Shown: positions 24,295 to 61,877 of the stretch, in pieces
Layout of the letters: each line of letters starts with the position of its first letter
How positions within the stretch are numbered: position 1 is the stretch's first letter
From: Diplonema papillatum
Lineage: Eukaryota > Euglenozoa > Diplonemea > Diplonemida > Diplonemidae
DNA length: 64,000 nucleotides
Assembly: GCA_030068145.1 (NCBI GenBank)
Contig: JAPJBO010000518.1
Coordinates: 1-64,000, forward strand
Direction: 5' to 3'
The notes under the pieces: model-generated
The model's input: only the letters and a program-made list of their open reading frames with translations
Databases searched by the model: none
Told to the model about the DNA's origin: nothing
Translations under genes and position numbers: made by a program

Positions 24295-25065
24295 TTTGTT
24301 ACATGGAGTTTAGAAGCGGTGACTGAATTTTGTTTTTTCGTTGTCTTTAAATACTCAAGTTCGAAGCGCAAACAGAACCCGAACTTTTTCCAAAACACGA
24401 ACTGACAATGATGGGACAGCTTTCTGAATTGTGGGCATCATGCGTGTGATGGGACAGCTTTCTGAATTGTGGGCATCATGCGTGTATGTATGTGGTGGGC
24501 TTGCAGTGCAACTTGGCACTAACTCTTGCGACTCGGAATCCGAGTCCCGACTCAGCGGACTCTCTCTAAATTGCTGGGGGCAGTGAAGAGGTTTCAGCTT
24601 CTTACGTTCGTAAGAAAATGCATGCAACCGTCAGGCTGGACCCAAAGTTTGGACACCGGAGCCCGGGCACGGAGTTCTGGGCGCACGCTGATTCGCGGCT
24701 GACATTTGCTGTTTACGAGGAAACGGGAAGAGATGCGTAGTTTTGTTGAGAAGTGGCTTTACGTTGGCGGACAAATAGTTTCGAGCGGCTGCTTAAAAGT
24801 GCGCTTCTTGACTTCCCGAGACTGGACAACTGGTTTCTGTGAGATTTTTGTTTATTGCGGAAATTAACTTCGCCGAACTTTACGGTTTCCCGAACTATAA
24901 CTACTGCCTCCAGTTTCGCCCCGCGCCGGCCTTTAGCCGAGCACGTACTTCTTGCTGCGGTAACTGCCGGACGTTTTCCGTCATTTTCTGGTGGAAGAAG
25001 TCCTGGCAGGCGGCCCGAAGCAGTCCGGTCCGGTCCTCGGACTCCGGGTTTGCGGGCGGCGGTTA
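24295..25065. other. Upstream region of the fusion gene with a 38-bp duplication at 24409-24485
   Basis: GATGGGACAGCTTTCTGAAT begins at 24410 and again at 24448. The copies are identical over 38 bp and lie about 115-190 bp upstream of the ATG at 24294. No other gene is seen. The rest is unremarkable intergenic DNA. Confidence 0.7.
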
Positions 25066-25240
25066 TTTTTTTGGAGCGCGGGACACTGGATTTGCCATTT
25101 TGGTACAGCGGGGTTGCCTACGTCCGGTTGCTTTCCCGGAGCGGTAGTCCCAATGCATGCTTCTTCAGCACAGTGAACGCCACCTTCACTGTGACCTGGC
25201 TGGCCTGCTTTACAGGGCAGGTCCGACCAGGCGAAGAAAC
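25066..25240 (-). mobile_element. 5'-truncated 3' tail of the R2L retroelement, diverged
   Basis: The reverse complement matches the 3' end of the R2-like element (60435-60589). It contains the CTGGCGTTCACTGTG-, GAAGCAACCGGA- and GTGTCCCGCGCTCC-like blocks and ends in a T run (25066-25072), equivalent to the poly-A tail. It has about 10-15 percent differences by eye, so it is an older insertion. Confidence 0.8.
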
Positions 25241-25368: not shown

Positions 25369-25506
25369 CTGGCGTTCACTGTGTGCTGAAGAAGTGTGAA
25401 AACGGGAAGCATTTTTTTGGGCTCCCGCTCTGGAAGCAACCGGATACCGGTAGCCCCGCTGTACCAACATGGCTTGTACAGTGTCCCGCGCTCCAGAAAA
25501 AAAAAA
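25369..25506 (+). mobile_element. 5'-truncated 3' tail of the R2L retroelement
   Basis: CTGGCGTTCACTGTGTGCTG through GTGTCCCGCGCTCC and a poly-A tail, nearly identical to 60478-60600 but with a 17-nt insertion after the GCTGAAGAAG block. A typical dead-on-arrival copy. Confidence 0.85.
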
Positions 25507-25682: not shown

Positions 25683-25917
25683 TTTTTTTTTTTAATTCGG
25701 GACCAAGCTTGGTACTGAAGCAACGAACTAACGGAGCCTCAGCTGGAAAGCCGGCGACCAGGTGGGAAACCAATCTAGACGAATGAACGAGAAAACCGGA
25801 GACTGGCCTAACTGAAGGGTAATTCCTTCTAGCAGTACTGGTGTACTGTGGGAGGGAGAGGAGTGCGGGCGGGGTTGTTTTCTGCACATCTAGTCTAAGT
25901 TGGCTGGGCCTTCACAA
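25683..25917 (-). mobile_element. 5'-truncated 3' UTR copy of element D
   Basis: The T run at 25683-25693, followed by CGGGACCAAGCTTGGTACTG, CTAGCAGTACTGGTGTACTG and CACATCTAGTCTA blocks, corresponds to 47514-47752, the 3' end of element D in the same orientation. Homology stops at CTTCACAATT (25917), and the spliced-leader sequence begins four nucleotides later on the opposite strand. Confidence 0.9.
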
Positions 25918-25921
25918 TTCC

Positions 25922-25960
25922 AACCAACGATTTAAAAGCTACAGTTTCTGTACTTTATTG
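25922..25960 (+). other. Genomic copy of a complete 39-nt spliced-leader exon
   Basis: It starts AACCAACGATTTAAAAGC and ends ACAGTTTCTGTACTTTATTG. The last 20 nt equal the conserved 3' part of euglenozoan SL exons, and the whole agrees with the diplonemid SL as I remember it. It sits 11 nt before the ATG at 25972, so it looks like the 5' end of a trans-spliced mRNA copied into DNA. The alternative is an SL RNA gene, since the exon is followed by GT, but the next bases do not resemble an SL intron and a 5.4-kb open frame starts at once. Confidence 0.85.
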
Positions 25961-25971
25961 GTGGCGGGATT

Positions 25972-28900
25972 ATGGTTGGGTGGGAAGGGCGGAAAATGAA
26001 ACTACTGCAGCGCACGATGATACTGTTGCTATTCACGGTCGTCGGCAGAAGCCTCATCGATGGCTGGGAAGACGTAAAGTACGAGCGGTACCGCAGAGAC
26101 GCACTGGGCCTGAACAACGACGTCCTCGCTCAGATTGCTGGCGGAAACCGCGAGTGGATCTCGCGGATCGTGCAAGCCCTCTCGCACGCGACCCACTTCG
26201 GCAGCCAGGAACGCTGCGTCAACGGGCAGCACACCAACGACGCCCCGAAGCTCACCAGCCACCGTGGCCAGTGCGGCTGGACTGCCATCGATGTTGCTCC
26301 GTTGGGCTATGCCGGAAGCTGGTTCCATGAGAAGGCCACGGAAGCGTGGGTCGTTCCTGAAGTAAACAGAATTGTTCCCTCCGTCGCGGAGGCGGCCGGA
26401 CAAGTACACCCTACTGCGGCCGCCGGCACGTCGTTTTTCACCAACCGCGAAGACGGCTTCAACGCTCTCCAGCGCCTACGGGCAGCTCCCAACTACACTG
26501 CTGTTGAGAGTGTAGGCTCGCATCCGTTCAACGCCCGTAGATCGCTCAGCCTCGTAACTACCATCCTCGACGACGTAAACGAGCGGACCTCTGACGACAA
26601 AACACTGTCTTCGCCGACCTCGAATACGCAGGCCGCCTATCGCCGTCACAGATCCGCATTTCGTAGCACGCGGCTAATCACAGACGGTGTGCGGGTTGGA
26701 AACAACGGCAGTGCCCGCGCCTCAAACTCGTTGGTCGCGCAGTGCCCCGGCTCCGCTTCCCCAGCGTCAGCCCTCGCCAAGGTGGTTGCTGGCTGCGTAT
26801 CCGAAGCGGAGCAGCTCTCTGGCAGCGCTGGTTTGGCGAATGAAGAGTACGAGTCGCACAGCATCCACATGCGAGTCTTGTTGGTCGACCATTTACGCGA
26901 CGTGTTTCACGGCGCGGCACTGCGCCCGCGCCTCCCTCCGTGCTCTTGGACTGTGTTCTTCCGCAGATCTGCACTTCGTAACTCGCGGCCGATCACTGAC
27001 AATGTGCTGGTTAGAAACAACAGCGGTGCTCCCCCGCTGTCCAGTCTAAGGTCTCACGCCGGCAGAAGCCTCTTCGATGCATTGCAGTCCGACTCGTCCG
27101 ACGGCTTCCCACCGCGAGATTTGATCATCGGCTTCAACAGGACCTACACCAATACCGCACCTCGCAGCTTGCGGCAAATCACTGGCGCTTTCACCGCCCT
27201 CGACAGCGAGCTGGAGTTCCGCATCCGGCTGACGAGCCTCCGCTCCGACACGCATAGGCTGCTCAGCTTCGAGTTTGACGGATCGAACAGAAGAGACTTC
27301 GCGCCTTTGGACCCGATCTACCTTGACGTCACGGGTCGCAACCCGGACTGCGCCCACGAGAGTTGGCTGTGGGACGAGATGTGCTGGTGGGACGCGGGGG
27401 ACTGCCGCAACGACCTGATCCCATCCACTTTCCTGCCGAACAACTACTCTGCGCAGTTCGAGAACCAAGTACGTCCGTATTCCATCCGGCCGATCGCGAT
27501 GCCGGTGCACGACGTAACCGTGACGTTCGTCGGCAAATCCCTCACTCTCACCGATGAAGCACTGTTCTGGACCGGAGCCGGGTCTACCGACACCTCGCCT
27601 CCTGCACCTGAAACGCGGTCGTACTCTCTGTCCGGTCGGTGTCCGAAGGGTGCGACGCTCACGCTCCAAGCCACGTACCTATTCTCCGGGACTGATTTCC
27701 ACCACTACGAGTTTCCAGAGCCGCAGGACATCCTCATCAAGCGGCTGATTAGGGTCAAGACGCCGTCTACGCCGGAGTACCCGTCCATGTACGTTCTCGC
27801 GACGTCGATGCCGCAGACGATGTCGATCGAAAGCGCGCCGCCGACGAGCCTGGCGCTCACGGTGCGGGCCGCGGACTCCGTCATATTCGAGCCGTCGGGC
27901 TACCTTTTCACGCCGACGGTCACGGAGCTCACCTTCACCGGCACCACCACCGATACCGGTGCCCACAACATCACCTGGCTCCAGACCGGCGCCGACGCAT
28001 CGCAGTACGCGCAGGTACCAAAGGTCGCTGAGGTCGCCGACGGCAACGCCACGTGGGTGTCGCCGCACCCGGACCGCACGCTGTTCGAAGCGAAGAAGAC
28101 CGTGTCGGAGGTGGACGTAGCGGACATGATCGTGCACGTTGGAGACGCCGCCTACAGCTTCAACGACGACAACGGAAAGGTGGCAATGGATACTACGCCG
28201 GACACGGACACGCACCGGGAGCAGTACACCACCCATGTGGAGTGCGGTCTCCGTGCCCGCCCGTCCTCGGTCACGGCAGCAGACACGGCATGGTCACCCC
28301 TGGCCCGCTATGATCTGACCAACGTCGTAGGCACGCCTTGCCTGCCACGGCTACCGCAGCCCCCTCGCTCTGTACTGCGGAGCCAGACGGCAAGACAACG
28401 TAGACTGCAGAGGTCAGCAGAACGACGCCGATCATCAAACCTGGCGCGTCATACCCGGATCTTCCATGCTCTGCCCCCGGCCTGGAGGTGTGGCTGGCAC
28501 TTCTCAAATTGGTGCAGGTTTCTCCAGTTGTGGGGGATCTGCGCCAGGGGCTGCAGTTGTGGTTCTGTTCGGTGGTGCCTGCTTGACAAATGGTCACGTG
28601 GAGAAACCACCCTCGCCACTGGTCGTACATGGCATTCCCCGGCGCAGCATCCGACGGTACAGCCACCCCCCGGCGCGCCCCCGGTTGCGACATCCTGTGT
28701 AAACCCCCCACAACGTGTGTGTGCGGCCACACCCACGACCGCCTCACCACGGACTGCGGAAACCGAGTCCCCAGCTCTCCCTCCTGTCGTCCCAGCAACA
28801 ACCATAGCTGAACACAGCCCAGCCCCCCGCCGGCCTGTCACCACCTTTTTGGTAACTGGGATCGACGGAAGAAGACGCTGTGTGACGGCGAAAATCGACG

Positions 28901-31422
28901 ACTGCCTCGGCGATGTGCTCTCGGAACTGGGACTGATCCCCTGCCCCGACGTTAGGGTTGTGAGTGGTCGTGGCACACCGCTGCCCCTCAAAGTGCCATT
29001 ACGGGAGATTGGTTTCGCTGCTGGATTCTCCCCGTCCCTCAGCGTGCTGCCTTATGTGCTGGGCGGCGGCCGTCACCGGGGGGGCCGTGGACATGGAACT
29101 GAGGGTGGGAGGGGCGCTAGCGTATGCTCGAGGACTCAGGCTGTCCCACACCGCAACGAAAGCAGGAGCAGTGCAGAAACAGGGAGCCGCTCCACCTCGT
29201 CTAAGGTCCGTGTACAAGTGGTCCGCGATGACGGTCTGACGGGGGACCGGGAGAAACTAAAACTGTACCCTGGCTGGGAAACGCCGCTGCTCCCGCTGAG
29301 AGTCTCAGCGTACCTGGAAACTGACGTGGTAGCAGAGATCGCGGCGTTAAACCCTGTGAAACTATCACAGCGCCTGCTTGACTGCAGATACCCGACTGAA
29401 AAAGTGACAGACGCCTGGGGTGCACGGGTATGGGACGGCAGATGTGAGGTGTGTGTCACAGTGCCAGAGGAAGACTCAGAATCCCTCCTCCGCTGTAGCG
29501 GCGCAGATGGGGTCTTTCTGTCACCGATGTCGCCAATGCCCCTCAAGGTGATTCAGCTGGGCACCTGTACCCTGGAACGCGCAAGGCAGATAGCAACACT
29601 GGCCGGGGATGCCCATCGTGGACTAGAAGAGATTGGAAGAGGGTACGGGCTACGAGTTGGAAACGGCTCATACGCAGCGGTCAGACACGAGCTAGCCTCG
29701 CAGGGACTGCTACCACCAGAACAAGGGACATTCCTTGTGCAAGGTATCCCGTGTGGTACAAACGCCGCAACGCTGCGTTCCAACTTGCAGGCACTCGGAT
29801 GGATAGTCACCCCGCTTTACAAAAGGACTGGGCCGCGACGCCTGGTTAGCTGGGTTGTGCTCTCAGAATGGTTACCTGGTAAGGACACGTACACGACGAG
29901 GACGGGGGTAAACCTAAGGATCCGCAGGATTGAGGATGACCCGACCCCCCCGGAAAAGCACACACCCGGGCCCTCCCTCTCCAAGGAATACCGTTCGGTG
30001 AACGCAGCAGGAGGAAAGAGGAAAGACCCTATCTCCAAGACTCTCCTAACCCGCAGAGAGTTCCAAGAAAGATTCCCAAGGGGCCAAGAGGCTGAGCTCA
30101 TGTGGAAGGTGGCGGGCGAGTACCCGGGGTCACAGGAGCAGCCCGATATGGAAGTCGATGACGGACAACCCCTGTTTGGAGGAAAAAGGGTCGATGACGA
30201 ATCGACGGACGAAGCAAACGTGGCTGCAAAGACGGAGTCGGTCCCCACTTGTCCGCCGGTCCCGACACCACCTAGTGACCTGGGTGCAAGGATGGCCAGC
30301 CTTGAGGCCACACTGCAGGCTGTCCTCACTCACTCTGCCTCCCTCCAACCTGACACTGCGGTACAACTGCTGAGGGCGGAGGTGCAAGCCCTAAGACAAA
30401 AAACCTGCCAGCCCTCGGACGAACTAAACCTACTCCGAGCAGAAATCGCCAGCCTCAGACAACACAGGCCCCAACCACCTACAAACGAACAACCTGAGGT
30501 GGCTCGGTTGCGGGCAGAAAACCACGCACTGAAGCAGGGACTCAGTCAAGCTGCGGCAGCGCCGGCACAGCAGCAGACAAATGTGGTCAACCCCCAATCG
30601 CACCCGCCAAGCCCGGAGACGACGGAACGCCAAAATCCGCAATCCCCGCCGGAGAACGCAGCGAAGTGTGGCAAACAGTCGGTGCTCGGGACCTTACAAA
30701 CGGATGCTTCACGCAGTGTGGAAGGCCAACGTGCTGAGGTTGGAAAATCGGCTAGTAACCTGGACAGGCGCTCCGCATCCGTGGTCCGGGGCGAAGTAGT
30801 ACCTCGTCGTCGGCGACGAAACTCAGATGAGAACGTCAGGGAAGGGCGCCGGGGGGAAACCCCCCCAAGCGACGCGGAGTCAGCGCCACGAAGGGAGAGG
30901 GACTCAGCTGCTTGCCGGCCTCGGGGACCACCAGTCTGTCCTGGAACGAGTATCGACGACCCTCGAACTATGACCCACGTAGCGCAAGCCACCGAGGCCC
31001 CCCCGGGCCCCTCGTACCAGCCGACAAACCACTGTAGTGAAAACCGGGACGAACAGCAGGCGGTCTGCACGTTGGACGCGACACACTGCCCCCAAGGCAT
31101 AGTGCGGGAGCCGCACGTACCTGTCGCTGCGACCGAGCAGTCTGTATCCTCGCAGGTTGTGGAGAAACAGGCAGTGGGTGACGGAGAGATGTGTAAACCG
31201 GGAAACAAATGCGACGAGTCGGAAACGGCCGTGATTCAGCGCCAGAAGTTCCAGCCATACTCGTCAGTGAGAGCGCAGACCCCAACGCCGAGGCGCTGCG
31301 AATCGCCACACCCGTGTGGTAGGGGGGCCCCCAGCACGCCTACCGGCAGGCTCCCCGGCGGCTCTAGAGCCTCGCCGCACACAGGTAAGGGAAGGAACAT
31401 GCCCCATTCCTTTCGTTCTTAG
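25972..31422 (+). CDS. Chimeric ORF1: secreted-type ectodomain, ubiquitin-like domain, RRM-like fold and coiled coil (1816 aa)
   Basis: One open frame from ATG 25972, 11 nt after the SL sequence. Residues 1-30 look like a signal peptide (LLQRTMILLLFTVVGRSLI). About 30-780 resemble an extracellular protein: several N-x-S/T sites, a Cys/Trp-rich patch with WWDAGDC (LNR-like) and beta-rich, Ig-like text. About 780-955 is low-quality, Arg/Pro-rich sequence that could be translated UTR. Residues 955-1033 are ubiquitin-like: FLVTGIDGRRRCVTAKIDD through GRGTPLPLK to LSVLPYVLGGG, with a C-terminal Gly-Gly-Gly. An RRM-like segment follows (GTFLVQGIPCGTNAATLRSN, about 1255-1310). Leu/Ala/Glu-rich coiled coil lies near 1440-1530. 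The latter half is a plausible retrotransposon nucleic-acid-binding ORF1; the first half looks like captured host sequence. Confidence 0.6.
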   Translation: MVGWEGRKMKLLQRTMILLLFTVVGRSLIDGWEDVKYERYRRDALGLNNDVLAQIAGGNREWISRIVQALSHATHFGSQERCVNGQHTNDAPKLTSHRGQCGWTAIDVAPLGYAGSWFHEKATEAWVVPEVNRIVPSVAEAAGQVHPTAAAGTSFFTNREDGFNALQRLRAAPNYTAVESVGSHPFNARRSLSLVTTILDDVNERTSDDKTLSSPTSNTQAAYRRHRSAFRSTRLITDGVRVGNNGSARASNSLVAQCPGSASPASALAKVVAGCVSEAEQLSGSAGLANEEYESHSIHMRVLLVDHLRDVFHGAALRPRLPPCSWTVFFRRSALRNSRPITDNVLVRNNSGAPPLSSLRSHAGRSLFDALQSDSSDGFPPRDLIIGFNRTYTNTAPRSLRQITGAFTALDSELEFRIRLTSLRSDTHRLLSFEFDGSNRRDFAPLDPIYLDVTGRNPDCAHESWLWDEMCWWDAGDCRNDLIPSTFLPNNYSAQFENQVRPYSIRPIAMPVHDVTVTFVGKSLTLTDEALFWTGAGSTDTSPPAPETRSYSLSGRCPKGATLTLQATYLFSGTDFHHYEFPEPQDILIKRLIRVKTPSTPEYPSMYVLATSMPQTMSIESAPPTSLALTVRAADSVIFEPSGYLFTPTVTELTFTGTTTDTGAHNITWLQTGADASQYAQVPKVAEVADGNATWVSPHPDRTLFEAKKTVSEVDVADMIVHVGDAAYSFNDDNGKVAMDTTPDTDTHREQYTTHVECGLRARPSSVTAADTAWSPLARYDLTNVVGTPCLPRLPQPPRSVLRSQTARQRRLQRSAERRRSSNLARHTRIFHALPPAWRCGWHFSNWCRFLQLWGICARGCSCGSVRWCLLDKWSRGETTLATGRTWHSPAQHPTVQPPPGAPPVATSCVNPPQRVCAATPTTASPRTAETESPALPPVVPATTIAEHSPAPRRPVTTFLVTGIDGRRRCVTAKIDDCLGDVLSELGLIPCPDVRVVSGRGTPLPLKVPLREIGFAAGFSPSLSVLPYVLGGGRHRGGRGHGTEGGRGASVCSRTQAVPHRNESRSSAETGSRSTSSKVRVQVVRDDGLTGDREKLKLYPGWETPLLPLRVSAYLETDVVAEIAALNPVKLSQRLLDCRYPTEKVTDAWGARVWDGRCEVCVTVPEEDSESLLRCSGADGVFLSPMSPMPLKVIQLGTCTLERARQIATLAGDAHRGLEEIGRGYGLRVGNGSYAAVRHELASQGLLPPEQGTFLVQGIPCGTNAATLRSNLQALGWIVTPLYKRTGPRRLVSWVVLSEWLPGKDTYTTRTGVNLRIRRIEDDPTPPEKHTPGPSLSKEYRSVNAAGGKRKDPISKTLLTRREFQERFPRGQEAELMWKVAGEYPGSQEQPDMEVDDGQPLFGGKRVDDESTDEANVAAKTESVPTCPPVPTPPSDLGARMASLEATLQAVLTHSASLQPDTAVQLLRAEVQALRQKTCQPSDELNLLRAEIASLRQHRPQPPTNEQPEVARLRAENHALKQGLSQAAAAPAQQQTNVVNPQSHPPSPETTERQNPQSPPENAAKCGKQSVLGTLQTDASRSVEGQRAEVGKSASNLDRRSASVVRGEVVPRRRRRNSDENVREGRRGETPPSDAESAPRRERDSAACRPRGPPVCPGTSIDDPRTMTHVAQATEAPPGPSYQPTNHCSENRDEQQAVCTLDATHCPQGIVREPHVPVAATEQSVSSQVVEKQAVGDGEMCKPGNKCDESETAVIQRQKFQPYSSVRAQTPTPRRCESPHPCGRGAPSTPTGRLPGGSRASPHTGKGRNMPHSFRS

Positions 31423-34400
31423 GGACGAAGGTAGTCCTACAGCAGGCCCGCTCGGTCCGAAAAACGCGCGGGTCGGCACCGAGCAGCGCAGCCTACGCCG
31501 AAAACGAGGCCCGCCACTCGGGAAACAAAACGGCGTGAGACGGGAGAAGACAGGCCTTCACAGTCCGGAGTCGACGCTGCGAGTAATCAGCTTCAACTGC
31601 AGATCATTCAAGGCAAGGGAATACCCGCCAAACTCGCAGGACGAGATCAGCCGATTGGTCGCCAGACACCAGCCAGACATACTCCTCTTGCAGGAAACAT
31701 GGCTGAGCGACAAATCGCTGCCTCCGGTGCTCCCCGGTTACCGTGCGCACAGACGTGACAGGCCAGGGGGTGGGGGCCATGGTGGAGTCCTGACGTTCGT
31801 GAAGTCGGACCTAGCGGCCACACAGATCCCCGTGGGCCCCTTCGGTGGTGATGGAGCAATGGAAAGCATTGCCGTTGCTGTCGAGCGGGCGGGCCTCCCC
31901 CCAATCCGAGTCTACAACGTATACAGGCCCCCCCAGCCAACTGCCTCTGAGTCGGGGAAGTTAAACATGCGGCCCTTCCCGATGGATGATGGGGTGGTAA
32001 TTGCCGGCGACCTAAATGTCCACCACGCTGACTGGTCGCAGGGGGTTGGCAACCCTGGGGGAGTAGTCCTACGCGACTGGCTACTTCGTAACTCGGCCAG
32101 AACATGGAATGACCCTGCCTCGCCGACTATGTGCCACAGGAAGCATGCAAGGCCCTCCTCCCCCGATATCGTCGTAGCGTCTGAGACCCCTGACTTTGTG
32201 ACGTGCTGGAAAGTCCTAGAGCCCTGGGGCTCCGACCACAGGCCGGTTTACTTTGAGCTGCCAAGAGGCTACCGGCAAGCTAGGGCCAAACTCCAGAAAG
32301 GCTACTCCTGGAAAAAAGCCGACTGGGGAAAAATGAAGGCGTATCTGGACGAGCAAAGCGAGAAGCTTCTTGCGGGTCGATATGGGCGACATGACATCAT
32401 GGGGAAGGTCACGTCACTCCTGCAAGATGGCCTGCGAAAGTTTGTCCCTACGTCCTCGTCGGAGCGCGTGCACAGAGCCTGGTGGACCCCTGAACTGAGC
32501 CGTCTGGAGACGGAAAAGGCAGCTTTGCATGCGGCGGCCTCGGCCGACCCCCTGGATAGGGAGAAGGCAAACGCCTACGAGAAGGCGAAAACCACCTTCT
32601 CAACAGAGGCGACGAAGGCAAAGGCTGGCTACTGGGGCGGTATAGTTGCGAACATCAACGCGTTTACCGACCTGGGCCTCCTGTACCGCCAGATACGCAG
32701 GATTGACGGGCGATCGCAACGATACTCCGTCCCGCCGATCCGGGTTGGCAACGTTTACGTGGTGGACGCCGCGGAAAAGGCAGACATCTTCGGTGACCAC
32801 CTCGCAACGTTATGCCGCCGGGAAGGCCCAAGGGCAGTAAGGCCTGCTTACATACATCCGAGCGGAGACTTCGAGGAAGCGGTAATCCCCTTCACAGAAG
32901 GTGAGCTGGACAGAGCGATCGCAGAACTCCGTGACACCACGTCACTTGACCCTGACGGCATCTGCTCGTCCTTGCTGTCCCATATTGGCGACGCCACGAA
33001 GGGACTGCTCCTAGAGATGTACAACATCTCGTGGACTACGGCAGCGGTACCCCAGAGCTGGAGAGATGCCCATGTCATTCCTGTCCCAAAGCCTGACAAG
33101 GACCATAGCCGCCCTGAGGGTTACAGGCCGATTTCCCTGACGAGCGTGATTTCCAAACTGATGGAGGTCATGATTAAGAACCGCCTGTCCTTTATCACTG
33201 AGAGCCCCAAGTTCCCCCATGTACGCCCTTTCTGCGACTCGCAGGGTGGCTTTCGTAAAGGTAGGGGCACTGAAGAACAGGTCCTAAGCATGGTAACCGC
33301 AATGGACCTGGCACGCAGCAACGGGTACTACTCGTGTCTATTGTCATTTGACTTAGCAAATGCATTTGACACGGTCGACCATGACTACCTGCTAGCAGTC
33401 ATGGAGAAACGTGGCGTGCCCCCTCGCTTCACCCGTTGGATTCGTGCCTTCCTGCGAGGACGGACGGCTGCGTACAAGGTCGACGGGAAAGTAGGGAAGA
33501 AAGTCTCGTTGAGCCGCGGCGTTCCCCAGGGCACAGTCCTCGGCCCCATCCTCTTCCTGTTTTGCATCGACGGGCTGGGCGTAAAGCTTGAGGAAATCAG
33601 CAGTGCGCTTGGAAACACAAAGGCCGGACCAAACTACCTGACCCCGTCACTGTTTGCAGATGACGTGGGGGTTGTCGTCTCGGCCTTGACGGTTGCCGAA
33701 CTCGAAGTGAAGGCACAGATGGTGGTGGACGCAGTCGAGAAATGGGTTGCTGGCGCCCGGATGAAACTGGCGCATCACAAGACAGAGGCCGTGCTCATCT
33801 GTCCACCGGGCAAGGGTACGGTACCCCCACGGTTGCGTTTCCGCAATGCTAGGTCGTCCATTCGCATTCCTGGATCCCAACTCCCAGCCTGGATAAGACG
33901 CTACAGCCATACTTTTGTGGCAAATGAAGCGCAATACAGAGTACATGAGGGCAAGCGGGTGGAAGCGGTTAACGGCCACTCTGGTTTCTCCAACGATGAC
34001 ATACATGCCATACATGGGGAAGTGCGCAACCAGTGGGTCGTCCTTGATCTCACGGAGCCTGTCCGCTGGGTGAAACAGACGAAGTTACTCGGCCTCATCA
34101 TCGATGACGAGCTGTCTTTTCACGCACACGCTGAGAGGGCCATAAAGCGCATGGCACAGAGAGGGAACCTCCTGCGCCACCTGTCGGGGAAAGCGTGGGG
34201 GTGCAGCACCGCTACGCTGCGCAGCCTGTACCTAACCTACGTGATCCCCTCTGTGACGTACTGTTTGTCGGTCTACGGGCCCTACTTGCTCAAATCGTCG
34301 CGCGCCTACCTCAGATCCTTTGAGCGACTCCACACGAGCTCGCTTGCGCACATCCTGGGATGCCGCAAAGGCGTTTCTGACTTTGTGGCGACCCGGGAGT

Positions 34401-36154
34401 CAGGTATTCCGCCGCTGGAGGTGTACGTGGACGTCAGACTCGGCAGCCTCTGGGAGAGAATGTTGCCCCGCAAGCACCTCTGGCCGGACGTCTTCAGACT
34501 GCCGTCCACACTGAGTCGACGATACACAGAGCTGACGCTGAAAGCCGGCACCCGCAACCTGCCGAGGGAACTCTGGGTGCACAACCCCTTCGCCCCTTGG
34601 CACCCACGTCCGGCGGTAGACATCAACCCCTCCCTGCCCGGCGGAAAAAAGGCAGCAGCACCTTCCGAGAAGAAACGTTCTGTCGAGAGCCAACTGCGTA
34701 AGCTCCCAGCCCCGGACTGTACGGTGTGGACCGATGGATCCGTACGCAGGGTACAGCCGCCGCCTCCACAGCCCGGTTCTCAAGCAGAACGCAACATATG
34801 GCCATGGTCCATGAAATGCGTAGACACCTGGACCTGGGGCGGAGCTGCAGCCTTGATTGAGTGCGCGCCCACGATCTCCCTTGCAAACGACCATGGCTTC
34901 GAGATCCGCCAGCGAGACGCCGTCCGTTCGACCACCCTCTCACACGCCGCTGGACGCTTTCCCTCCAGCCTCAAGGCGGAGACGCTCGCATTGGCCGCGG
35001 CCCTCAGGGCCCTCCTTAGGCTCCTCACGCCCACCACCGCGCCCCGAACGGTCTTACTGCTGTCAGACTCGCAGTCGCTATTGCAACGTTTGGCGAGCGG
35101 CCCACAGACGCAGAAGCAACCCCTCATGGTACACATCTGGACCATGCTCCGTACCCTCACACGGTTAGGATACACAGCAACGCTCCAGTTTGTGTACGGA
35201 CACTGTGGCCTGCGCGGAAACGAGGTGACCGACGGACTGGCGAGGCACGCCACTCTCCAACACCACAGAGAGCTGTCGCGGTGCCGGGGTAACCCCACAA
35301 GGGAGTGTCCGATCGCGGCGGAGGATGCGGTGGCGCGCTACAAGGCGTACCTGTCCGCCGTGTCCACCGAGGCCATGGCGCGAGCGGCGTTTGAAAGGGC
35401 GACCAAACACCGCATCACACTGCCCTACGCCCGGATCGTGGATGGGCGGAACATCAAGCGCCCAGCTCACCTCACGACGCGCGCTGAGCGGGTGATCCGG
35501 CAGTTCAGGACTGGTCACCACCCGCTAGTGATGACCATGTACGCCCCGGACTACGCCGATCTCGACAAGCAGGAAAGGCGGCGTGCCTATCGCAGCTGTG
35601 CACTGTGCGGCAAGCACCGCCCGAACGTGCTCGAACACCTGCTCGTTGAATGCGACGATGCGGCTAGCCAGCCACACCGCAGGAGCATGTGGTCGAAGGC
35701 TCTGGTCGGCAAGGGGCCCGAGGCCGCGTCACGCCTGCCGCCCGGAGCTACCAATGCCGACAAGCTGTGGCACGTCCTTTTCAAGTTTCCCGAGCTCGCC
35801 CTCGAGTACTTGCAGGATGCGGGTTTAATCCCTCGGTTCGTTAACGTGAGACCAGATTGTGGGGAGGCGCTGACCCCTTCCGGCTCAATCTGTGACGGAA
35901 GGTCTGTGTGGAGCTCACAGACTGTCACCTCGCAGATTAGTGCCCCACAGAGCACTCCGGCTAGCAGACAGCCGGTAAGCCTCAGCCGTGAACCAGTGGA
36001 CTCGGAAGCCAGCGAGCCATACCGCAATTTGCACGACGACGGCCCGCCTCTCCGCACCAGCAGGTCTCCCACGCCCGACTTGGAGTCGGTGGCGGCTGGT
36101 GGGATCTGCTACACAGACGCCATCAGCAGTGACGGCTCTAACGACTGGGCCTGA
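31316..36154 (+). CDS. Element A ORF2: APE endonuclease, reverse transcriptase, RNase H
   Basis: Endonuclease: ISFNCRSF (near 31590), LLLQETWLS, GDLNVHH, and SDHRPV near 32230, with the expected Asn, Glu, Asp and His. RT: RPISLTSVISKLMEVMI, GGFRKGRGTEEQ, FDLANAFDTVDHD, GVPQGTVLGP and catalytic FADD at 33653-33664. RNase H: VWTDGSV, LKAETLALA, LLSDSQSL and YGHCGLRGNE. C-terminal knuckle C-x2-C-x8-H-x4-C near 35596-35655. All catalytic residues I can check are present, so it may be active. The frame overlaps ORF1 by at least 107 nt in the +1 frame and has no ATG before the endonuclease, so it is probably made by frameshifting from ORF1. Confidence 0.92.
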   Translation: MVGGPPARLPAGSPAALEPRRTQVREGTCPIPFVLRDEGSPTAGPLGPKNARVGTEQRSLRRKRGPPLGKQNGVRREKTGLHSPESTLRVISFNCRSFKAREYPPNSQDEISRLVARHQPDILLLQETWLSDKSLPPVLPGYRAHRRDRPGGGGHGGVLTFVKSDLAATQIPVGPFGGDGAMESIAVAVERAGLPPIRVYNVYRPPQPTASESGKLNMRPFPMDDGVVIAGDLNVHHADWSQGVGNPGGVVLRDWLLRNSARTWNDPASPTMCHRKHARPSSPDIVVASETPDFVTCWKVLEPWGSDHRPVYFELPRGYRQARAKLQKGYSWKKADWGKMKAYLDEQSEKLLAGRYGRHDIMGKVTSLLQDGLRKFVPTSSSERVHRAWWTPELSRLETEKAALHAAASADPLDREKANAYEKAKTTFSTEATKAKAGYWGGIVANINAFTDLGLLYRQIRRIDGRSQRYSVPPIRVGNVYVVDAAEKADIFGDHLATLCRREGPRAVRPAYIHPSGDFEEAVIPFTEGELDRAIAELRDTTSLDPDGICSSLLSHIGDATKGLLLEMYNISWTTAAVPQSWRDAHVIPVPKPDKDHSRPEGYRPISLTSVISKLMEVMIKNRLSFITESPKFPHVRPFCDSQGGFRKGRGTEEQVLSMVTAMDLARSNGYYSCLLSFDLANAFDTVDHDYLLAVMEKRGVPPRFTRWIRAFLRGRTAAYKVDGKVGKKVSLSRGVPQGTVLGPILFLFCIDGLGVKLEEISSALGNTKAGPNYLTPSLFADDVGVVVSALTVAELEVKAQMVVDAVEKWVAGARMKLAHHKTEAVLICPPGKGTVPPRLRFRNARSSIRIPGSQLPAWIRRYSHTFVANEAQYRVHEGKRVEAVNGHSGFSNDDIHAIHGEVRNQWVVLDLTEPVRWVKQTKLLGLIIDDELSFHAHAERAIKRMAQRGNLLRHLSGKAWGCSTATLRSLYLTYVIPSVTYCLSVYGPYLLKSSRAYLRSFERLHTSSLAHILGCRKGVSDFVATRESGIPPLEVYVDVRLGSLWERMLPRKHLWPDVFRLPSTLSRRYTELTLKAGTRNLPRELWVHNPFAPWHPRPAVDINPSLPGGKKAAAPSEKKRSVESQLRKLPAPDCTVWTDGSVRRVQPPPPQPGSQAERNIWPWSMKCVDTWTWGGAAALIECAPTISLANDHGFEIRQRDAVRSTTLSHAAGRFPSSLKAETLALAAALRALLRLLTPTTAPRTVLLLSDSQSLLQRLASGPQTQKQPLMVHIWTMLRTLTRLGYTATLQFVYGHCGLRGNEVTDGLARHATLQHHRELSRCRGNPTRECPIAAEDAVARYKAYLSAVSTEAMARAAFERATKHRITLPYARIVDGRNIKRPAHLTTRAERVIRQFRTGHHPLVMTMYAPDYADLDKQERRRAYRSCALCGKHRPNVLEHLLVECDDAASQPHRRSMWSKALVGKGPEAASRLPPGATNADKLWHVLFKFPELALEYLQDAGLIPRFVNVRPDCGEALTPSGSICDGRSVWSSQTVTSQISAPQSTPASRQPVSLSREPVDSEASEPYRNLHDDGPPLRTSRSPTPDLESVAAGGICYTDAISSDGSNDWA

Positions 36155-36840
36155 CGACGCCGCATCGTTCAACTCCACTGTTATCGAACCCAACGACACC
36201 ACGCAACGTGCTGCTTCAAGACGTCAACGTAACATCACCTACAACCCACGGCCTTCAAGAAGTGCTGCCAGACAACGCCGATGAACTCGCAGCTGCCGTG
36301 TGCGTGTCCTTGAGCTTCCACATTGTCGCCTCGGCCAAAGCCAGCGTGTGCACAAACAAACGCCGTCGAACTCAGCTCTGCAAAAAACGACTGTTGTATT
36401 TGCTACCAAGCACCGCAAACTGCTGCGCCTCCAAAGGCAGCAAGAATATAAACTGAAGCACAAACTACAAATGCACCGACAACAGCAAAAGTGTTCCATA
36501 AAAGTGTTCCATAAACTGTGCACTGGCTACCAAGGCACCACCAACTGTTGCACCTACATCAAACAAAAAAACATACAAGACAAACCCAGTGAGTTCGGGT
36601 ACAGCACGAAGCGACCCACTGTAACCCTGGGTTAACGTTAAAAAGTTACACAATGAAACAAGAGACAAGGAAATCACCCCACCCTAGCCTAGCAAGCAAC
36701 CTAGCCCCCAACAAACTAGCCTGTGCCTTGTGCAGCACACAGTGTCTAACCTTGCGACTCAACCACGTCCTTGCCGATAATACGGGACCCAGCCACCCCG
36801 ACTCACGTTCCAATCATCAGCCAAGAGTCAACCGATCTAA
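36155..36840. other. 3' region of element A, and a tRNA-like A-box relic
   Basis: A- and C-rich 3' UTR of element A to about 36650. At 36735-36775 the minus strand reads ACGTGGTTGAGTCGCAAGG, identical to the A-box half of the tRNA-like SINE head at 61657-61740, so a SINE fragment lies between elements A and B. The TAA at 36838-36840 closes the frame of element B upstream. Confidence 0.55.
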
Positions 36841-39800
36841 TGGCCGGGGACGAGCCGCAGGGGACCGAAGCCCAGCCGGGGGACGGACGAAACTCCCCGT
36901 CGCGGCGCCCGGAGGGGCCAAAGGCGTCGCAACCTCCCCGCCCCCAAACAAACTGAGCCTCGACCGCCGGCCATCTTCGACGCACTGATCAAAATCGCGT
37001 CGAGCAACATCAGGTCGTGGTGGGCGAAGCAAGGGCCGTATTCAATCGAAGAAGTGACGAGAGGCATTCGAGCCCACGCACCCGACATAGTACTCCTACA
37101 GGAAACATGGCTGACGAGCACGAAGCCCACACCGAACGTCGCCGGATACGTCGCCTACCGGCGCGACAGGAAAAATTCGGGGAAGAGGGGTGGAGGACTC
37201 GTCATCCTGGTACGGAGCTCGTTGATCAGCCGAATACTTCCGGAACTGGACTTTGGCGAAGACACACTCATGGAGTGCTTAGGTATCGAAATAGACCGCG
37301 TAGGCCTCCCAAGCGTCCGCATCTACAACGTGTACCGCCCGCCGGAAGACGGGAAAGACCTGAAGATGGATCCGCTAGCCATGAATGAGAGAACCATCAT
37401 ATGCGGGGACCTCAACACACGCCACCCATCATGGTGCCCCAGCAGGGTCGCAAACCAAGCAGGCACGAAGCTCCACGCATGGCTCTCCAGCAACGCGGCA
37501 ACCGTGTGGAACGAACCGACGACGCCGACGCGGGACGCATCAAACACCTCCCCCGACGTAACGATCGCAGCTGGCCTCCCACACACCATCCTGAACTGGA
37601 GAACGGAGGAAGCATGGGGCGCTGACCATCGAACTCTCATGTTCGACATCCCACGCGGATACAGGCACAGAAAGGAAACACCAAGAGCCGGAATCGCCTG
37701 GGGTCGAGCAGACTGGAAGAAGTTCACAGAACATCTCGAAAACACGTGTGCCGCATCCCCGGAGGACGAAACAACCGACCCCCACGAGCTAGCGGCCACG
37801 TTAACAGGCCACATCCGAGACGCGATCCGCGAGCACATCCCCAAGTCAACTGGGAAGCTGCCCCCGAGGCCGTGGTGGGACAAGACATTGACACCTCTGT
37901 CTCGGAGCAAAGACGCCGCATTCCGGTCGTTCCAGCAGCAGAAAACGGAGCACGCAAAGACCGCGTACGAAGAAGCGAGGGCGAGATTCGCGGAAGCGGC
38001 GCTACACGCCAAGACGATCTACTGGGGCGGAATCGTCGACAAAGTGAACCGCGGAACAGACCTAGGGCTACTGTTCCGGACGGTCCGCGAAATCGACGGG
38101 AAGAAGACGAGTAGCACACTCCCTCCCCTCCGGTCAGGAGAGCGGACCACCACCGACCCGGCCGAGAAGGCAACCCTCCTCGCCAAATATTACGCCAACG
38201 TCTGCAAGAAGAAGACGGAACCAACACCGACAACAAAGCCGGCGACACCGTCCGATGAACGCCAGGAAACCACAAATAAAACCCAGCATAACACCGAAGT
38301 CTGCAAGAAGAAGACGGGTTCAACACCGACGACGGAGCCTGCGACGCCATCCGGAAAACGCCAGGAAACCGCGAACAACGAAGCCGAAGGCCCGATCACT
38401 CTAGCCGAAATAGAGAGAGCAGTCGAGAAGCTCAAAGCGAAGGCATCAACCGACCCGGAAGGCCTCTGCCCCCAAGTTTACAAAGCGATGGAGAAGGGCA
38501 CCCTCCAGGCACTACTGAAGGTAATCAACGCGTCGTGGGACAACGCGACGATCCCAAAGCCGTGGAAAGAGGCTCATGCCATACCCCTTCCGAAGCCGGG
38601 AAAAGACAAGTCCGAACCAGCAGGATACCGCCCAATCTCGCTGACGAGCGTCGCGGCAAAGATCATGGAAACGGTGATCAGGGAAAGGCTCGATTTCATC
38701 ATCGAAGGAGACAGCTACCCTCACGTCCGACCATTCACGGAGTGCCAAGGTGGCTTCCGGAAAGGAAGGGGGACAGAAGAACAGCTGTTCAAGACCGTGA
38801 CGACCGTTGACCGCAGCCTCCGGGACGAATGCCACACTTGCCTACTCGTGTTCGACCTCGCAAAGGCATTCGACACGGTAGATCACGACAGACTCATCGC
38901 GATCATGAAGCGTCGCGGCATTCCGCCGAAGATAGTGAGGTGGGTCGAGGCCTTCTTGCAGGACAGGAAGGCAAAGTTCCGGGTAGAGGGAAAATACGGC
39001 GAAGAGGTGACACTCGAAAGTGGAGTCCCCCAGGGAACTGTGCTCGGACCAGTGTTATTCCTCTTGTACATCGACGACCTCGGCGAAAAGCTGTCCACGA
39101 TGCCGAAACCAACACGCACCAATCCAAATAGCGTGACCCCATCTCTATTCGCCGACGACGTGGGGGTAGTAGTGGCTGGTCGCTCGGCGGCAGGGTTCAA
39201 AGAAACAGTCCAACGAGTGGTAAACGCACTCTCAACCTGGGCCTCCGAGGCGAAGATGGACCTGGCGTACAAGAAGACGGAGGCTGTTCAATTCCGCCCG
39301 ATCGACAAGTCTGGCAACCGACCCGCGAACATGCGAAGGAGGGTCCACCCACCTCTGATCACCTTCCCGAACTCGCACCAAAAAGTCACTGAGGCACCAA
39401 CCGAATTCGGCAGGAAGGCACACGAGCAAGATGGGGCGCTCCGCTACATCGATCCATCCAGCCCACACAACAAGAAGAGGATAGTGTCAATCGGCGGAGT
39501 GCCAACGACAACGCAACCGCAATGGAGACGAAATATCCATCGAATCGGGGAGACGGCCCAAAACCCCATAGAGTTCACGGTGGTGTCAGACCTTCAGTGG
39601 AAGGACAAGGTAACACTCCTGGGGCTGACGATCGACGACAGACTGAACTTCACAGCTCACATAGATCGCATACTGCAGAGCGCTGGGCGGAGGGTAAATC
39701 TGGTACAGCTGGTATCCGGGACGAAGTGGGGCCACAAGACCGAAGTGCTCAGAGCCCTCTACATGGCATACGCCCTGCCGGTCTTAACCTACGGCATGGC

Positions 39801-41427
39801 AGTCTACATCCGTTATGCATCGAAGAAGGACGTGGACAGGATAGAGTGCCTGCATCGAACCGCACTCTGCGCCGTGGTTGGCTGCAAGAAGACGACGTTG
39901 ACGGAAGCTGTCCTCACCGAGGCACGAATGCTGCCAATCAGGTCGATAACCGACCTCAGGACAGGCGCGCTGGCGGAAAAGATGGCCACGAAGACCATGT
40001 GGAAGGACGTGCTGCATCCGCGACGAACCAACGACACCCTCCCGCAGTCCTTCCTCATCCTCAAGAAGACGGCGCGAACATCGAAGCCACGGCGGGAGAA
40101 GCACGCACCAAATCCCTTCCCACCTTGGAAGCCGCCACCAGAGCTCCACATCTGCGCTTCACTTCCAAAGAAGTCGAAAAGCGCCGAGGAAAACCGGAGA
40201 AAGGCAGAGGCAGTCCTCGACGGATTGCCATCCCCGACATACATCGTCTGGACGGACGGATCGGTTGCGGCGCTGAAGAGAAGACACGCACAGTACCAGC
40301 TGCTCCACGGTACAACCGTAACAACCGACGAGGTCACGAGGTGGGGTGGCGCAGGTCTCGTGGTGTACTACCGCCGAGAAGAAAGCTGGAGAGACGCGAC
40401 GCCGATGAAAGGGACCCGCCTAAGCCGTCAGGCCGGTAAGTGGGCAACCAGCTACCGCGCGGAGCAAGTGGCGATGAAAATTGCGCTGGAATCGCTGGAG
40501 CTGAAACTGGGAAAGAGGGAGGTACTCGAAGGAGAGCCTACCAGCAGACACATCTGGGTGCTCAGCGACTCCAGCTCCCTTCTGAACGTGCTGTCCCAAG
40601 GTCCGCACAAACAGCAAGAACGGGACAACGTCCGAATCTGGCAGGCGCTCGAGAAACTGGTTGCGAAGGGGTATACACCAGTACTCCAGTTCGTCTACGG
40701 CCACTGCGGACTAGCAGGGAACGAAGAGGCGGACGGGCTAGCGAAGCAGGGCGTCTCGCAGACCGGAGAAGAAACGCAGCCGCCGATGACGGTAGGAACC
40801 GCGAAGGCCCGGTACCGCGAGCACGCCTGGGAGGCACTACACGCGGCTTCAATGCGGGAATCCCCGTACCAACCGGGCGGGCCGCTGCCGTACACGCAGT
40901 TGGTCCGAGGACGGAAGGTCCCAAAAACGGCACACCTGACGAGGCGAGCCGAGCGCGAGATCCGCCAGCTTCGCACGGGACACCACCAACTCCTCAGGAA
41001 CTGCTACCGGGACGACTGGATGGATCTCGCAGCAGAAGAGAGGCAAGCAACCCGCCCATGCCAGCTTTGCGACGCCACGCCGATCTGCCCCCTAACACAC
41101 CTTTTCCTGGAATGCAGAATCGGGGGCGACGAGAGAGCGACCATGTGGAGACGGGTCCACAAGGCCATCCCGGACACACCAAGGGAAAAGCCGACACCCA
41201 GGGAAAGGCACAAGCTGCTTTGGCCGCTGCTCTTCGAGCTCCCTGAAGCAGCCCTCGCGTACCTTCAGGCCGTGGGGCTTGTGCCGAAGTACGAGGTCTA
41301 CGAAGACCCACCTGAGCCCGGCACACCGGAACTCGACGGCAACATGGCGGCAGCAGCAACCAATGGCGTCGACAACACCTTCGACCTCGAGGGATCAAGC
41401 TCCGAGGATGCCGAAGGATGGGCATAA
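36841..41427 (+). CDS. Element B ORF2: APE endonuclease, reverse transcriptase, RNase H
   Basis: Open from 36841 with no ATG before the endonuclease, which begins near 36985 (KIASSNIRSWW). Endonuclease: IVLLQETWL, CGDLNTRH and ADHRTLMF. RT: RPISLTSVAAKIMETVI, GGFRKGRGTEEQ, DLAKAFDTVDHD, PQGTVLGP and FADD at 39148-39159. RNase H: WTDGSV, YRAEQVAMK, LSDSSSLL and YGHCGLAGNEEADG. Terminal knuckle CQLC...H...C near 41059-41115. It carries a 99-nt in-frame tandem duplication (38200 and 38299) between endonuclease and RT. ORF1 is absent, so the copy is 5' truncated or the start lies in an upstream ORF lost at insertion. Catalytic motifs are intact. Confidence 0.9.
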   Translation, partial: WPGTSRRGPKPSRGTDETPRRGARRGQRRRNLPAPKQTEPRPPAIFDALIKIASSNIRSWWAKQGPYSIEEVTRGIRAHAPDIVLLQETWLTSTKPTPNVAGYVAYRRDRKNSGKRGGGLVILVRSSLISRILPELDFGEDTLMECLGIEIDRVGLPSVRIYNVYRPPEDGKDLKMDPLAMNERTIICGDLNTRHPSWCPSRVANQAGTKLHAWLSSNAATVWNEPTTPTRDASNTSPDVTIAAGLPHTILNWRTEEAWGADHRTLMFDIPRGYRHRKETPRAGIAWGRADWKKFTEHLENTCAASPEDETTDPHELAATLTGHIRDAIREHIPKSTGKLPPRPWWDKTLTPLSRSKDAAFRSFQQQKTEHAKTAYEEARARFAEAALHAKTIYWGGIVDKVNRGTDLGLLFRTVREIDGKKTSSTLPPLRSGERTTTDPAEKATLLAKYYANVCKKKTEPTPTTKPATPSDERQETTNKTQHNTEVCKKKTGSTPTTEPATPSGKRQETANNEAEGPITLAEIERAVEKLKAKASTDPEGLCPQVYKAMEKGTLQALLKVINASWDNATIPKPWKEAHAIPLPKPGKDKSEPAGYRPISLTSVAAKIMETVIRERLDFIIEGDSYPHVRPFTECQGGFRKGRGTEEQLFKTVTTVDRSLRDECHTCLLVFDLAKAFDTVDHDRLIAIMKRRGIPPKIVRWVEAFLQDRKAKFRVEGKYGEEVTLESGVPQGTVLGPVLFLLYIDDLGEKLSTMPKPTRTNPNSVTPSLFADDVGVVVAGRSAAGFKETVQRVVNALSTWASEAKMDLAYKKTEAVQFRPIDKSGNRPANMRRRVHPPLITFPNSHQKVTEAPTEFGRKAHEQDGALRYIDPSSPHNKKRIVSIGGVPTTTQPQWRRNIHRIGETAQNPIEFTVVSDLQWKDKVTLLGLTIDDRLNFTAHIDRILQSAGRRVNLVQLVSGTKWGHKTEVLRALYMAYALPVLTYGMAVYIRYASKKDVDRIECLHRTALCAVVGCKKTTLTEAVLTEARMLPIRSITDLRTGALAEKMATKTMWKDVLHPRRTNDTLPQSFLILKKTARTSKPRREKHAPNPFPPWKPPPELHICASLPKKSKSAEENRRKAEAVLDGLPSPTYIVWTDGSVAALKRRHAQYQLLHGTTVTTDEVTRWGGAGLVVYYRREESWRDATPMKGTRLSRQAGKWATSYRAEQVAMKIALESLELKLGKREVLEGEPTSRHIWVLSDSSSLLNVLSQGPHKQQERDNVRIWQALEKLVAKGYTPVLQFVYGHCGLAGNEEADGLAKQGVSQTGEETQPPMTVGTAKARYREHAWEALHAASMRESPYQPGGPLPYTQLVRGRKVPKTAHLTRRAEREIRQLRTGHHQLLRNCYRDDWMDLAAEERQATRPCQLCDATPICPLTHLFLECRIGGDERATMWRRVHKAIPDTPREKPTPRERHKLLWPLLFELPEAALAYLQAVGLVPKYEVYEDPPEPGTPELDGNMAAAATNGVDNTFDLEGSSSEDAEGWA
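38200..38397 (+). repeat. In-frame 99-nt tandem duplication in element B
   Basis: GTCTGCAAGAAGAAGACGG begins at 38200 and 38299. Each copy encodes about 33 residues of the type VCKKKT...TPTT.PATPS. The copies have diverged by several substitutions and lie in the linker before the RT fingers, where length changes are probably tolerated. Confidence 0.9.
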
Positions 41428-47513: not shown

Positions 47514-47953
47514 TTTTTTTTTTTCAATTCCGGACCAACTTGGCTACTGAAGCAACGAACGAACGGAGTCTCAGCTGGAAAGCTGGCGACCAGGTGGGAA
47601 ACCAATCTAGACGAGTGAACGATAAATTGGAGGCTGGCCTGACTGAAGGGTAATTCCTTCTAGCAGTACTGGTGTACTGTGGGAGGTAGCAACGGGTGGG
47701 GGGTGGGATGTCCTCTGTACATCTAGTCTATGGTTGGGGCTTCACAATTGCGGGTGTGTCATTTACTCTCTTTTGTGTACTGACGTTAGGCGGCCTTCAT
47801 CTTATGTCTTTTGTAATCTTGTTGCTTGTTCAGCAAGGTCTTTACAGGGGGGCGGTGCTACACATTCTATTCTCGTCGTGGGGTAATTGTTAGGGTAGGT
47901 AGTCACAGGTGTGGCTCGTTCTGGCCGTATCTAGGGCAGGTGTGTTCGTTTAT

Positions 47954-52369: not shown

Positions 52370-52402
52370 GTTGGTGCAATCAGATTTTAGGGACAATGAA
52401 CG

Positions 52403-53738: not shown

Positions 53739-53773
53739 CAATAAAGTACAGAAACTGTAGCTTTTAAATCGTT
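53739..53773 (-). other. Spliced-leader footprint at the 5' end of element D (35 nt)
   Basis: The minus strand reads AACGATTTAAAAGC then ACAGTTTCTGTACTTTATTG, identical to the last 35 nt of the 39-nt sequence at 25922-25960. The first four SL bases (AACC) are absent. It lies 50 nt upstream of the ORF1 ATG, so element D was copied from a trans-spliced RNA. Confidence 0.9.
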
Positions 53774-53799: not shown

Positions 53800-54095
53800 G
53801 TTGAGCTTTCAAGTAGCCCAGGGGGTGGCAAGAATAGTCATTTCATCTGGCGGGGCGCGACCGGACGAAGCGGTCCACCCTGGTGCAGGGGGTAGTGTCA
53901 CTGCATCGCGGGTTTTTTTACCTGGTCGGACCTGCTTGCTAGCAGGCCAGCCCAGGTCGCAGTGAGACTGGCGTTCACTGTGTGCTGAAGAAGCATTTTT
54001 TTGGGCTCCCGCTCCGGAAGCAACCGGATACCGGCAGCCCCGCTGTACTAACATGTCGAGTACAGTGTCCCGCGCTCCAAAAAAAAAAAAAAAAA
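53800..54095 (+). mobile_element. 5'-truncated R2L copy with poly-A tail
   Basis: Matches 60312-60600 at about 95 percent, beginning at TTGAGCTTTCAAGTAGCCC in the last codons of the R2L frame and ending in a 17-nt A run. AATCGCAA occurs on both sides (53780-53787 and 54094-54101), a candidate 8-bp target-site duplication, and the copy sits at the 5' boundary of element D. Confidence 0.9.
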
Positions 54096-61870: not shown

Positions 61871-61877
61871 TCAAAGT

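Follow-up and report, generated by a model that had tools for sequence, protein, structure and literature searches.

What is a spliced-leader (SL) exon doing in genomic DNA of Diplonema papillatum, a few bases ahead of a long open reading frame? The window, a 64,000-nucleotide stretch of DNA analyzed at its full length, holds at positions 25922–25960 of the plus strand the 39-nt sequence AACCAACGATTTAAAAGCTACAGTTTCTGTACTTTATTG, all letters of which are those of the SL exon. An 11-nt leader (25961–25971, plus strand) separates it from the ATG at 25972 of a 5,451-nt frame (25972–31422), in agreement with an earlier note on this DNA that placed an SL 11 nt before the ATG of a 5.4-kb frame. The frame is present as described, yet it is ORF1 of a LINE and no ordinary gene. 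A 20-nt SL core has two exact matches in the window versus none in 100 dinucleotide shuffles; the second match, absent from that note, lies on the minus strand at 53739–53758. The sequence at 25922–25960 very probably forms the 5′ end of a copied LINE retrotransposon that arose via a trans-spliced mRNA written back into DNA. A host SL exon is joined here to a LINE with an AP endonuclease (APE) and a reverse transcriptase (RT), sister copies share the junction in other flanks, and one of them has a poly(A) tail and a target-site duplication.

The SL RNA genes of the same genome served as reference. They are arranged in arrays, for example on G000:C1335, with a unit of ~1240 bp. The gene read there (L041) has the exon AACCAACG...TTATTG, the same 39 nt, and then a 75-nt intron starting GTACTTTAACACATCC; the intron stretch ends in a hairpin, followed by TTTCTTTT. 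Exon and intron lengths agree with the D. papillatum SL RNA gene described in excerpts of the genome paper, which has a 39-bp exon, a 75-nt intron and 110 copies at at least 90% identity (PMC10161547). The SL exon at 25922–25960 was thus confirmed by identity to the exon of an SL RNA gene of its own genome, and the diplonemid origin that had been predicted from the letters is borne out by the same match. At least three SL RNA intron types (starting GTACTTTAACACATCC, GTACTTTAACACACCT and GTACTTAAACACCC) occur with one common exon (L041, L090–L092, L094).

Sequence around the window site differs from that of an SL RNA gene on both sides. In the SL RNA genes read, the exon continues as GTACTTTAACAC or GTACTTAAACAC and a TTTTGG..AA stretch lies upstream. 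The window continues as GTGGCGGGATT, and, aligned to the SL intron, the 75 nt that follow the exon score 21.5, against a shuffled mean of 26.4; 493 of 500 shuffles do at least as well. Upstream lies a 3′-end piece from a LINE of the B family, oppositely oriented (25683–25919, minus strand, 87% identical to 47515–47749), which meets the SL at CTTCACAATT. An SL RNA gene at 25922 was ruled out by this comparison of intron and flank. The host SL is joined directly to downstream sequence, and both the promoter-side sequence and the intron of the SL gene are absent. The central reading of the earlier note, a trans-spliced mRNA copied back into DNA, is supported by this SL identity and the absent SL intron.

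Element A, the LINE behind the footprint, has the features of an APE-type LINE: AP endonuclease and RVT_1 domains in ORF2, and dispersed near-identical copies with poly(A) ends, its own 3′ end excepted. ORF1 (25972–31422, plus strand, 1,816 aa) matches no Pfam family at 0.001. ORF2 (31316–36154, plus strand, 1,612 aa) matches Exo_endo_phos (1.8e-21) and RVT_1 (4.5e-32). Up to the end of the 3′ part of A (36155–36756, plus strand) the window copy matches a sister copy on C1210, with 99.5% identity over 935 nt; this match ends at 36756, before the poly(A) of C1210, and the sequences then diverge. The 3′ end of the window copy is therefore missing, either lost or interrupted, and no poly(A) or target-site duplication was found there. 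Three strings from the missing 3′ end have no match within the window. With the RT region of A as query, the best 25 protein matches include 22 from D. papillatum, and the best identity is 51%. A further LINE frame (APE, RVT_1 and RNase H) occupies 37054–41427, soon after A's match to C1210 stops; no SL was seen at its start.

Other copies of A carry the same junction. A 30-nt stretch of A occurs at 17 genomic sites; 13 sites were read, L099 included. The SL stands at the window's junction in 8 of these 13, window included, and the 11-nt leader is the same in the seven other rows with this junction. The eight rows represent five distinct flanks (L037 repeats L030, L040 repeats L039, and the flank of L038 is that of L035), and sister copies share the SL junction in different flanks on several contigs. 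L036 and L099 have the SL plus 16 nt, a tandem relict SL cut after its internal AG that is absent from the window copy. L034 has the SL and then an 11-nt SL piece, joined farther downstream in the element, and L029, at the same site as L014, has the SL ahead of a different 5′ gene piece. Only L031, cut near the junction, lacks the SL among the 13 read.

Retroposition hallmarks are clearest in the copy on G000:C385 (5′ end L030, 3′ end L112), where the SL is preceded by GGATTTTTA and the 3′-terminal A23 is followed by GGATTTTTAC, a target-site duplication of 9–10 bp (GGATTTTTA / GGATTTTTAC). The 3′ ends on C1544, C1047 and C1210 carry A16, A11 and A19 and lack a clear duplication. Poly(A) is thus present at four of four A-family 3′ ends (C385, C1544, C1047, C1210), with a clear duplication only at C385; C1513 ran off its contig. 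String matching at the first 20 loci yielded no further clean target-site duplication and was confounded by tandem repeats and by insertion in other LINE ends. A-family copies lie at A or T runs (flanks of L033–L036, L038 and L039). The C385 copy lies beside a tRNA-Pro gene (L112, 1417–1488). One A-family copy follows T12 behind what appears by eye to be a tRNA 3′ end; L039/L040 gave no tRNA gene with ARAGORN.

The assembly search for SL exons outside SL RNA genes, proposed in the earlier note, was run with a 37-nt SL core, which has 517 exact matches in the organism's own genome (271 Mb), with 0 for the reversed control. GT follows the 37-mer in 342 of the 517, and because GT is absent after the exon in the rest, at least 175 cannot be SL RNA genes. 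The last SL letters with the SL-type intron start GTACTT[T/A]AACAC occur at 215 places, 92 of them with the longer type-1 intron. About 302 footprints are present in the genome, and at least 302 if this intron start covers all SL RNA genes. The counts hold exact matches only and include duplicated stretches, so they are of sites and not of independent insertions. The statement that SL exons are not found at gene starts fails in this genome, with 517 exact 37-mers versus 215 SL-intron-start places.

Among the first 20 sites listed, L023 is an SL RNA gene and the other 19 are footprints, each followed for ~9 kb, with LINE or retroelement sequence behind all 19. LINE-type domains or close homology to A lie behind 14 (L009–L016, L020, L021, L024, L026–L028). 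A second family lies behind five (L017, L018, L019, L022, L025), whose main frames are 40–60% identical; L019 alone has an RT_RNaseH match above the Pfam cut-off, those of the other four being weak. Four frames of this family, from L018, L019 and L025, had no NCBIfam match at 0.1, and the L019 frame had no PDB match. By resemblance, these five loci may be DIRS/VIPER-like. Seven further footprints (L104–L109, L111) were followed for 1.5 kb only; within that distance the longest frame of L104 does not exceed 206 codons, and L105, L107 and L108 match no Pfam family above its cut-off.

Clustering of 79 footprints by downstream sequence gave 33 clusters, with some related footprints split. Sites were not sampled at random: they follow contig order with some listed sites skipped, and the A, X and +16 classes were collected by family-chosen patterns. 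The sets used for clustering and for the nt-1 and nt-2 counts left out L001–L008 (re-fetched at greater length), L032, L104–L109 and L111 (overlaps), rows with identical flank and junction, sites near sequence ends, and sites with altered last 16 SL letters (L083, L084, L086, L089, L103). An Rfam search for self-cleaving ribozymes at LINE 5′ ends gave, at six loci, a single chance-level match (isrG, E 0.44), and the whole window gave no Rfam match at gathering thresholds.

The 5′ boundary of the footprints is constant. Sixty-three footprints have 37 or more SL letters. Of these, 55 show A at the position of SL nt 2 (p 4e-20) and 17 show A at that of nt 1 (p 0.5), tested against an A fraction of 0.31 in the upstream 60 nt. 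With family X (described below) removed, A stands at nt 2 in 45/53 and at nt 1 in 15/53; with one footprint per cluster, the counts are 24/29 and 11/29. The four SL RNA genes in the set read AA. Genome-wide, 517, 480 and 300 sites have 37, 38 and 39 SL letters, and after subtraction of the 215 SL RNA-type sites 302, 265 (88%) and 85 (32% of 265) remain, on the assumption of an exact AA exon in all 215, as read in four. Since A is in excess at nt 2 and at background at nt 1, the copied leader seems to be SL nt 2–39, with copying stopped one base short of the cap. The SL exon in the window had been called complete; its 39 letters do match, and its first A is probably not SL-derived because the footprints as a group match the SL only from nt 2. 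The SL-derived part is most likely 25923–25960. The cap 4 of kinetoplastids includes a base-methylated first adenosine. A similar cap-proximal modified adenosine in Diplonema would explain the stop, and a general failure of RT at the cap would explain it too.

Several loci appear to record more than one round of trans-splicing. L021 carries the unspliced ...AATTCATCCAGGACAAACAC (ATCCAG followed by GACAAACAC), and L028 has the SL joined to GACAAACAC exactly after the AG; the two are 99.6% identical over 5.1 kb. The SL plus the 16 nt that follow its own internal AG gave 25 matches in 23 loci, all 23 of which were read, a count that covers the exact 16-nt class only. The preceding SL has at least 37 exact letters in 14 of these loci and is cut short or altered in 9. 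There are three extra 16-nt units in L044 and two in L055, where the older unit differs by one base. Read from the DNA, these junctions appear to show new trans-splicing onto tagged copies, at an AG within the older SL or at a downstream AG. The L012 cluster has five copies with five different sequences between the SL and the common part. Because these differ and some resemble the insertion target, acceptors in flanking DNA are suggested for this cluster.

Family X encodes 2OG oxygenase, APE and RT domains. A 26-nt pattern finds 73 copies, preceded by TTTATTG in 68; the other five were read and have an altered SL or the SL plus two letters (the latter at L101 and L102). The SL extends beyond its last 7 letters in at least 32 of the 73 (20 by exact 37-mer among the matches listed, 12 read). 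An exact-pattern genome search found AG joined to the X junction in 0/73, a search that a copy with a changed letter would escape, so an unspliced source copy of family X was not seen. The assembly may lack the source copy or contain it in altered form; alternatively, the SL may be renewed at constant length, for instance by internal-AG splicing and then slippage on the 16-nt repeat. Five X copies agree in all of the first 31 nt behind the SL, and pairs of X copies differ by up to ~17% over 1.4–2 kb. A 2OG-Fe(II) oxygenase domain precedes the endonuclease in family X and L011 (L011, L013, L021, L024, L028), and L020 has a LINE frame with an OTU-like protease. Many insertions of family X and related LINEs are at or close to a shared TGCTTAAC / TGCTAAAC-like sequence, often in 3′ ends of other LINEs, as read in the upstream flanks of L009, L011, L013, L024, L026, L028, L081, L082 and L088. 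Because insertions recur at this common sequence, these LINEs look target-specific.

L014 (G000:C11:358500–368463, minus strand), a relative of A, has an ORF1 whose N-terminus is half of an astacin metalloprotease domain (PF01400, 4.9e-9); the domain breaks off near the start of the homology to A. There are 180 protein matches in the genome, a mosaic with many in large open frames; some short frames among the matches listed may be host genes. The annotated D. papillatum protein P0025 combines astacin and RT. Such arrangements suggest that host-gene pieces may have been captured into LINE ORF1.

The proposed route to the footprint starts with a LINE that would be transcribed, probably inside a host polycistron, and whose RNA would be trans-spliced at a 3′ splice site and so acquire the capped SL; the trans-splicing of these LINEs is inferred from their genomic copies. 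The LINE's own endonuclease and RT would copy this SL-mRNA from its poly(A) end to SL nt 2, leaving the cap-proximal nucleotide uncopied, and the cDNA would be inserted with the SL left in the DNA. An inserted copy could be expressed again, trans-spliced anew at the AG in the old SL, adding 16 nt, or at a downstream AG, losing the old SL, and then copied again. Splicing perhaps also takes place at an AG in flanking DNA, in which case flank would be gained.

Other origins were weighed against this route. That the site is itself an SL RNA gene, or that a LINE entered one in the SLACS/CRE manner, is highly improbable: the exon is complete and indeed followed by GT, as in SL RNA genes, yet the GTGGCGGGATT continuation, the intron alignments and the LINE 3′ end in place of the TTTTGG..AA stretch all argue against it, and the endonuclease is of the APE type. 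Joining of SL to LINE by misassembly or cDNA contamination deserves as little credence, since the junction recurs in different flanks on several contigs and SL nt 1 is consistently missing, even though the assembly is fragmented (2,910 contigs) and some A-family rows duplicate one another. An ordinary processed retrogene, in which LINE machinery copied a trans-spliced host mRNA in trans, would leave a footprint by the same logic as in dinoflagellates, and the N-terminus of ORF1 in the related L014 looks host-derived, being half an astacin domain. This origin is nevertheless quite unlikely, as an intact APE-RT ORF2 overlaps ORF1 and the unit is kept in sister copies.

A single SL capture per LINE family, with the SL then inherited as a functional 5′ part and never added again in trans, concerns the maintenance of the SL and not its origin. 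It draws on family X, where SL letters or an altered SL stand at the junction in 73/73 copies and AG in none, and where the 31 nt after the SL have stayed the same in five copies despite the divergence of the elements. It is held to be unlikely, because L028 and the +16 copies would represent new trans-splicing onto tagged copies, because a 5′ boundary constant at SL nt 2 is expected if copying runs to the cap, and because 29 of the 33 clusters of 5′ sequences contain a footprint with at least 37 exact SL letters.

Recurrent retroposition of trans-spliced LINE mRNA might have a wider role, proposed here tentatively and at slightly less than even chances: diplonemid SL trans-splicing would act as 5′-end repair for retrotransposons. 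LINEs would need no promoter of their own, any insertion below some AG in a transcribed polycistron gaining a cap and a translatable 5′ end; truncated copies would be revived with new 5′ sequence, the +16-nt units would record the rounds, and the nt-2 stop would reflect a block at cap nt 1. If so, 5′-truncated copies could be revived, with flank or host-gene sequence becoming a new 5′ UTR or N-terminus. The genome would hold a layered record of rounds, 16 nt for each re-splice at the internal AG, and the DNA by itself would reveal a block to reverse transcription at nt 1 of the Diplonema cap, as expected from a base-methylated first adenosine like that of kinetoplastids.

Slamovits and Keeling are said to have described mRNA recycling with relict SLs in dinoflagellates in 2008. 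In the literature covered, recycling of SL-tagged mRNA is described for dinoflagellates and, as candidate cases, for Paulinella. As in Diplonema, a genomic SL heads retroposed sequence in dinoflagellates, and older SLs, truncated after AG, lie directly behind a newer SL, according to excerpts of PMC3229502 and PMC12014239. The former calls the combination apparently unique among eukaryotes, though perhaps overlooked elsewhere (excerpt of PMC3229502). The dinoflagellate tags are on genes and their 22-nt SL is cut after nt 7 (excerpts of PMC3229502, PMC12014239), whereas the 39-nt SL of Diplonema is cut after an internal AG that leaves 16 nt, and the footprints followed for ~9 kb are on retroelements. 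A host gene as the recycled unit was accordingly rejected for the window, where the unit is a LINE; the 19 footprints followed for ~9 kb divide into 14 on LINEs and 5 on the RT/RNase-H family. In Paulinella micropora, SL matches lie just upstream of genes, with 11 candidates of which 6 passed manual check (text available of PMC9311404); these are few and on genes, in contrast to ~302 exact footprints in Diplonema, many on LINEs.

Among euglenozoan LINEs, SLACS, CRE and CZAR of trypanosomatids are likewise physically tied to SL sequence, but in the sections consulted of PMC12278014 they insert in SL RNA genes and have a restriction-enzyme-like endonuclease. Element A, which lies away from SL RNA genes, has the SL as its own 5′ end and an endonuclease of the AP type. 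Membership of A in SLACS/CRE was rejected on these grounds, namely no fixed insertion inside an SL RNA gene and APE instead of the restriction-enzyme-like enzyme. L1Tc and ingi also have a common short 5′ sequence (Pr77), which activates transcription yielding unspliced transcripts (excerpts of PMC8190864, PMC4748587); in the Diplonema LINEs the common 5′ sequence is the SL exon. Proteins of D. papillatum named after Jockey, BS and X elements have the same domain set as the A and B LINEs, and about 2500 gene models are retroelements (parts of PMC10161547). The terms retroposition, footprint and SL sequence are absent from the main text of that paper, in the version available (PMC10161547). No published report of SL footprints in Euglenozoa or of LINEs with SL 5′ ends was found in a search of the openly accessible literature.

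Since a footprint marks the 5′ end of a reverse-transcribed mRNA, retroposition becomes countable in a euglenozoan genome, as in dinoflagellates. The sequences behind the footprints indicate that two different retroelement groups would pass through trans-spliced mRNA, which could explain the persistence of promoterless LINEs in polycistronic genomes. The footprints also offer a DNA-level readout of the point where reverse transcription meets the cap. Diplonema gene models that adjoin genomic SLs should be checked first for retroelements or retrocopies.

The second footprint in the window, at the 5′ end of element B, is a 5′-shortened SL of 35 exact nt (53739–53773, minus strand). ORF1 of B (52403–53689, minus strand) starts with an ATG at 53689 and matches no Pfam family at 0.001. 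ORF2 (47954–52396, minus strand) encodes APE, RVT_1 (4.1e-32) and RNase H, and an A11 run in the sequence (47514–47524, minus strand) is the likely 3′ poly(A) of the element. A short dispersed repeat with A-rich ends lies at 25406–25506, 53990–54090 and 60500–60600, with identities to the first copy of 93% for the second and 97% for the third, and an inverted copy (82%) is present at 25063–25133. It looks like a small non-autonomous retroelement, and visual inspection places it behind the poly(A) of the C1544 copy of A as well. The end of the window (61807–64000) consists of nine overlapping 300-nt repeat copies at a spacing of 221–244 nt.
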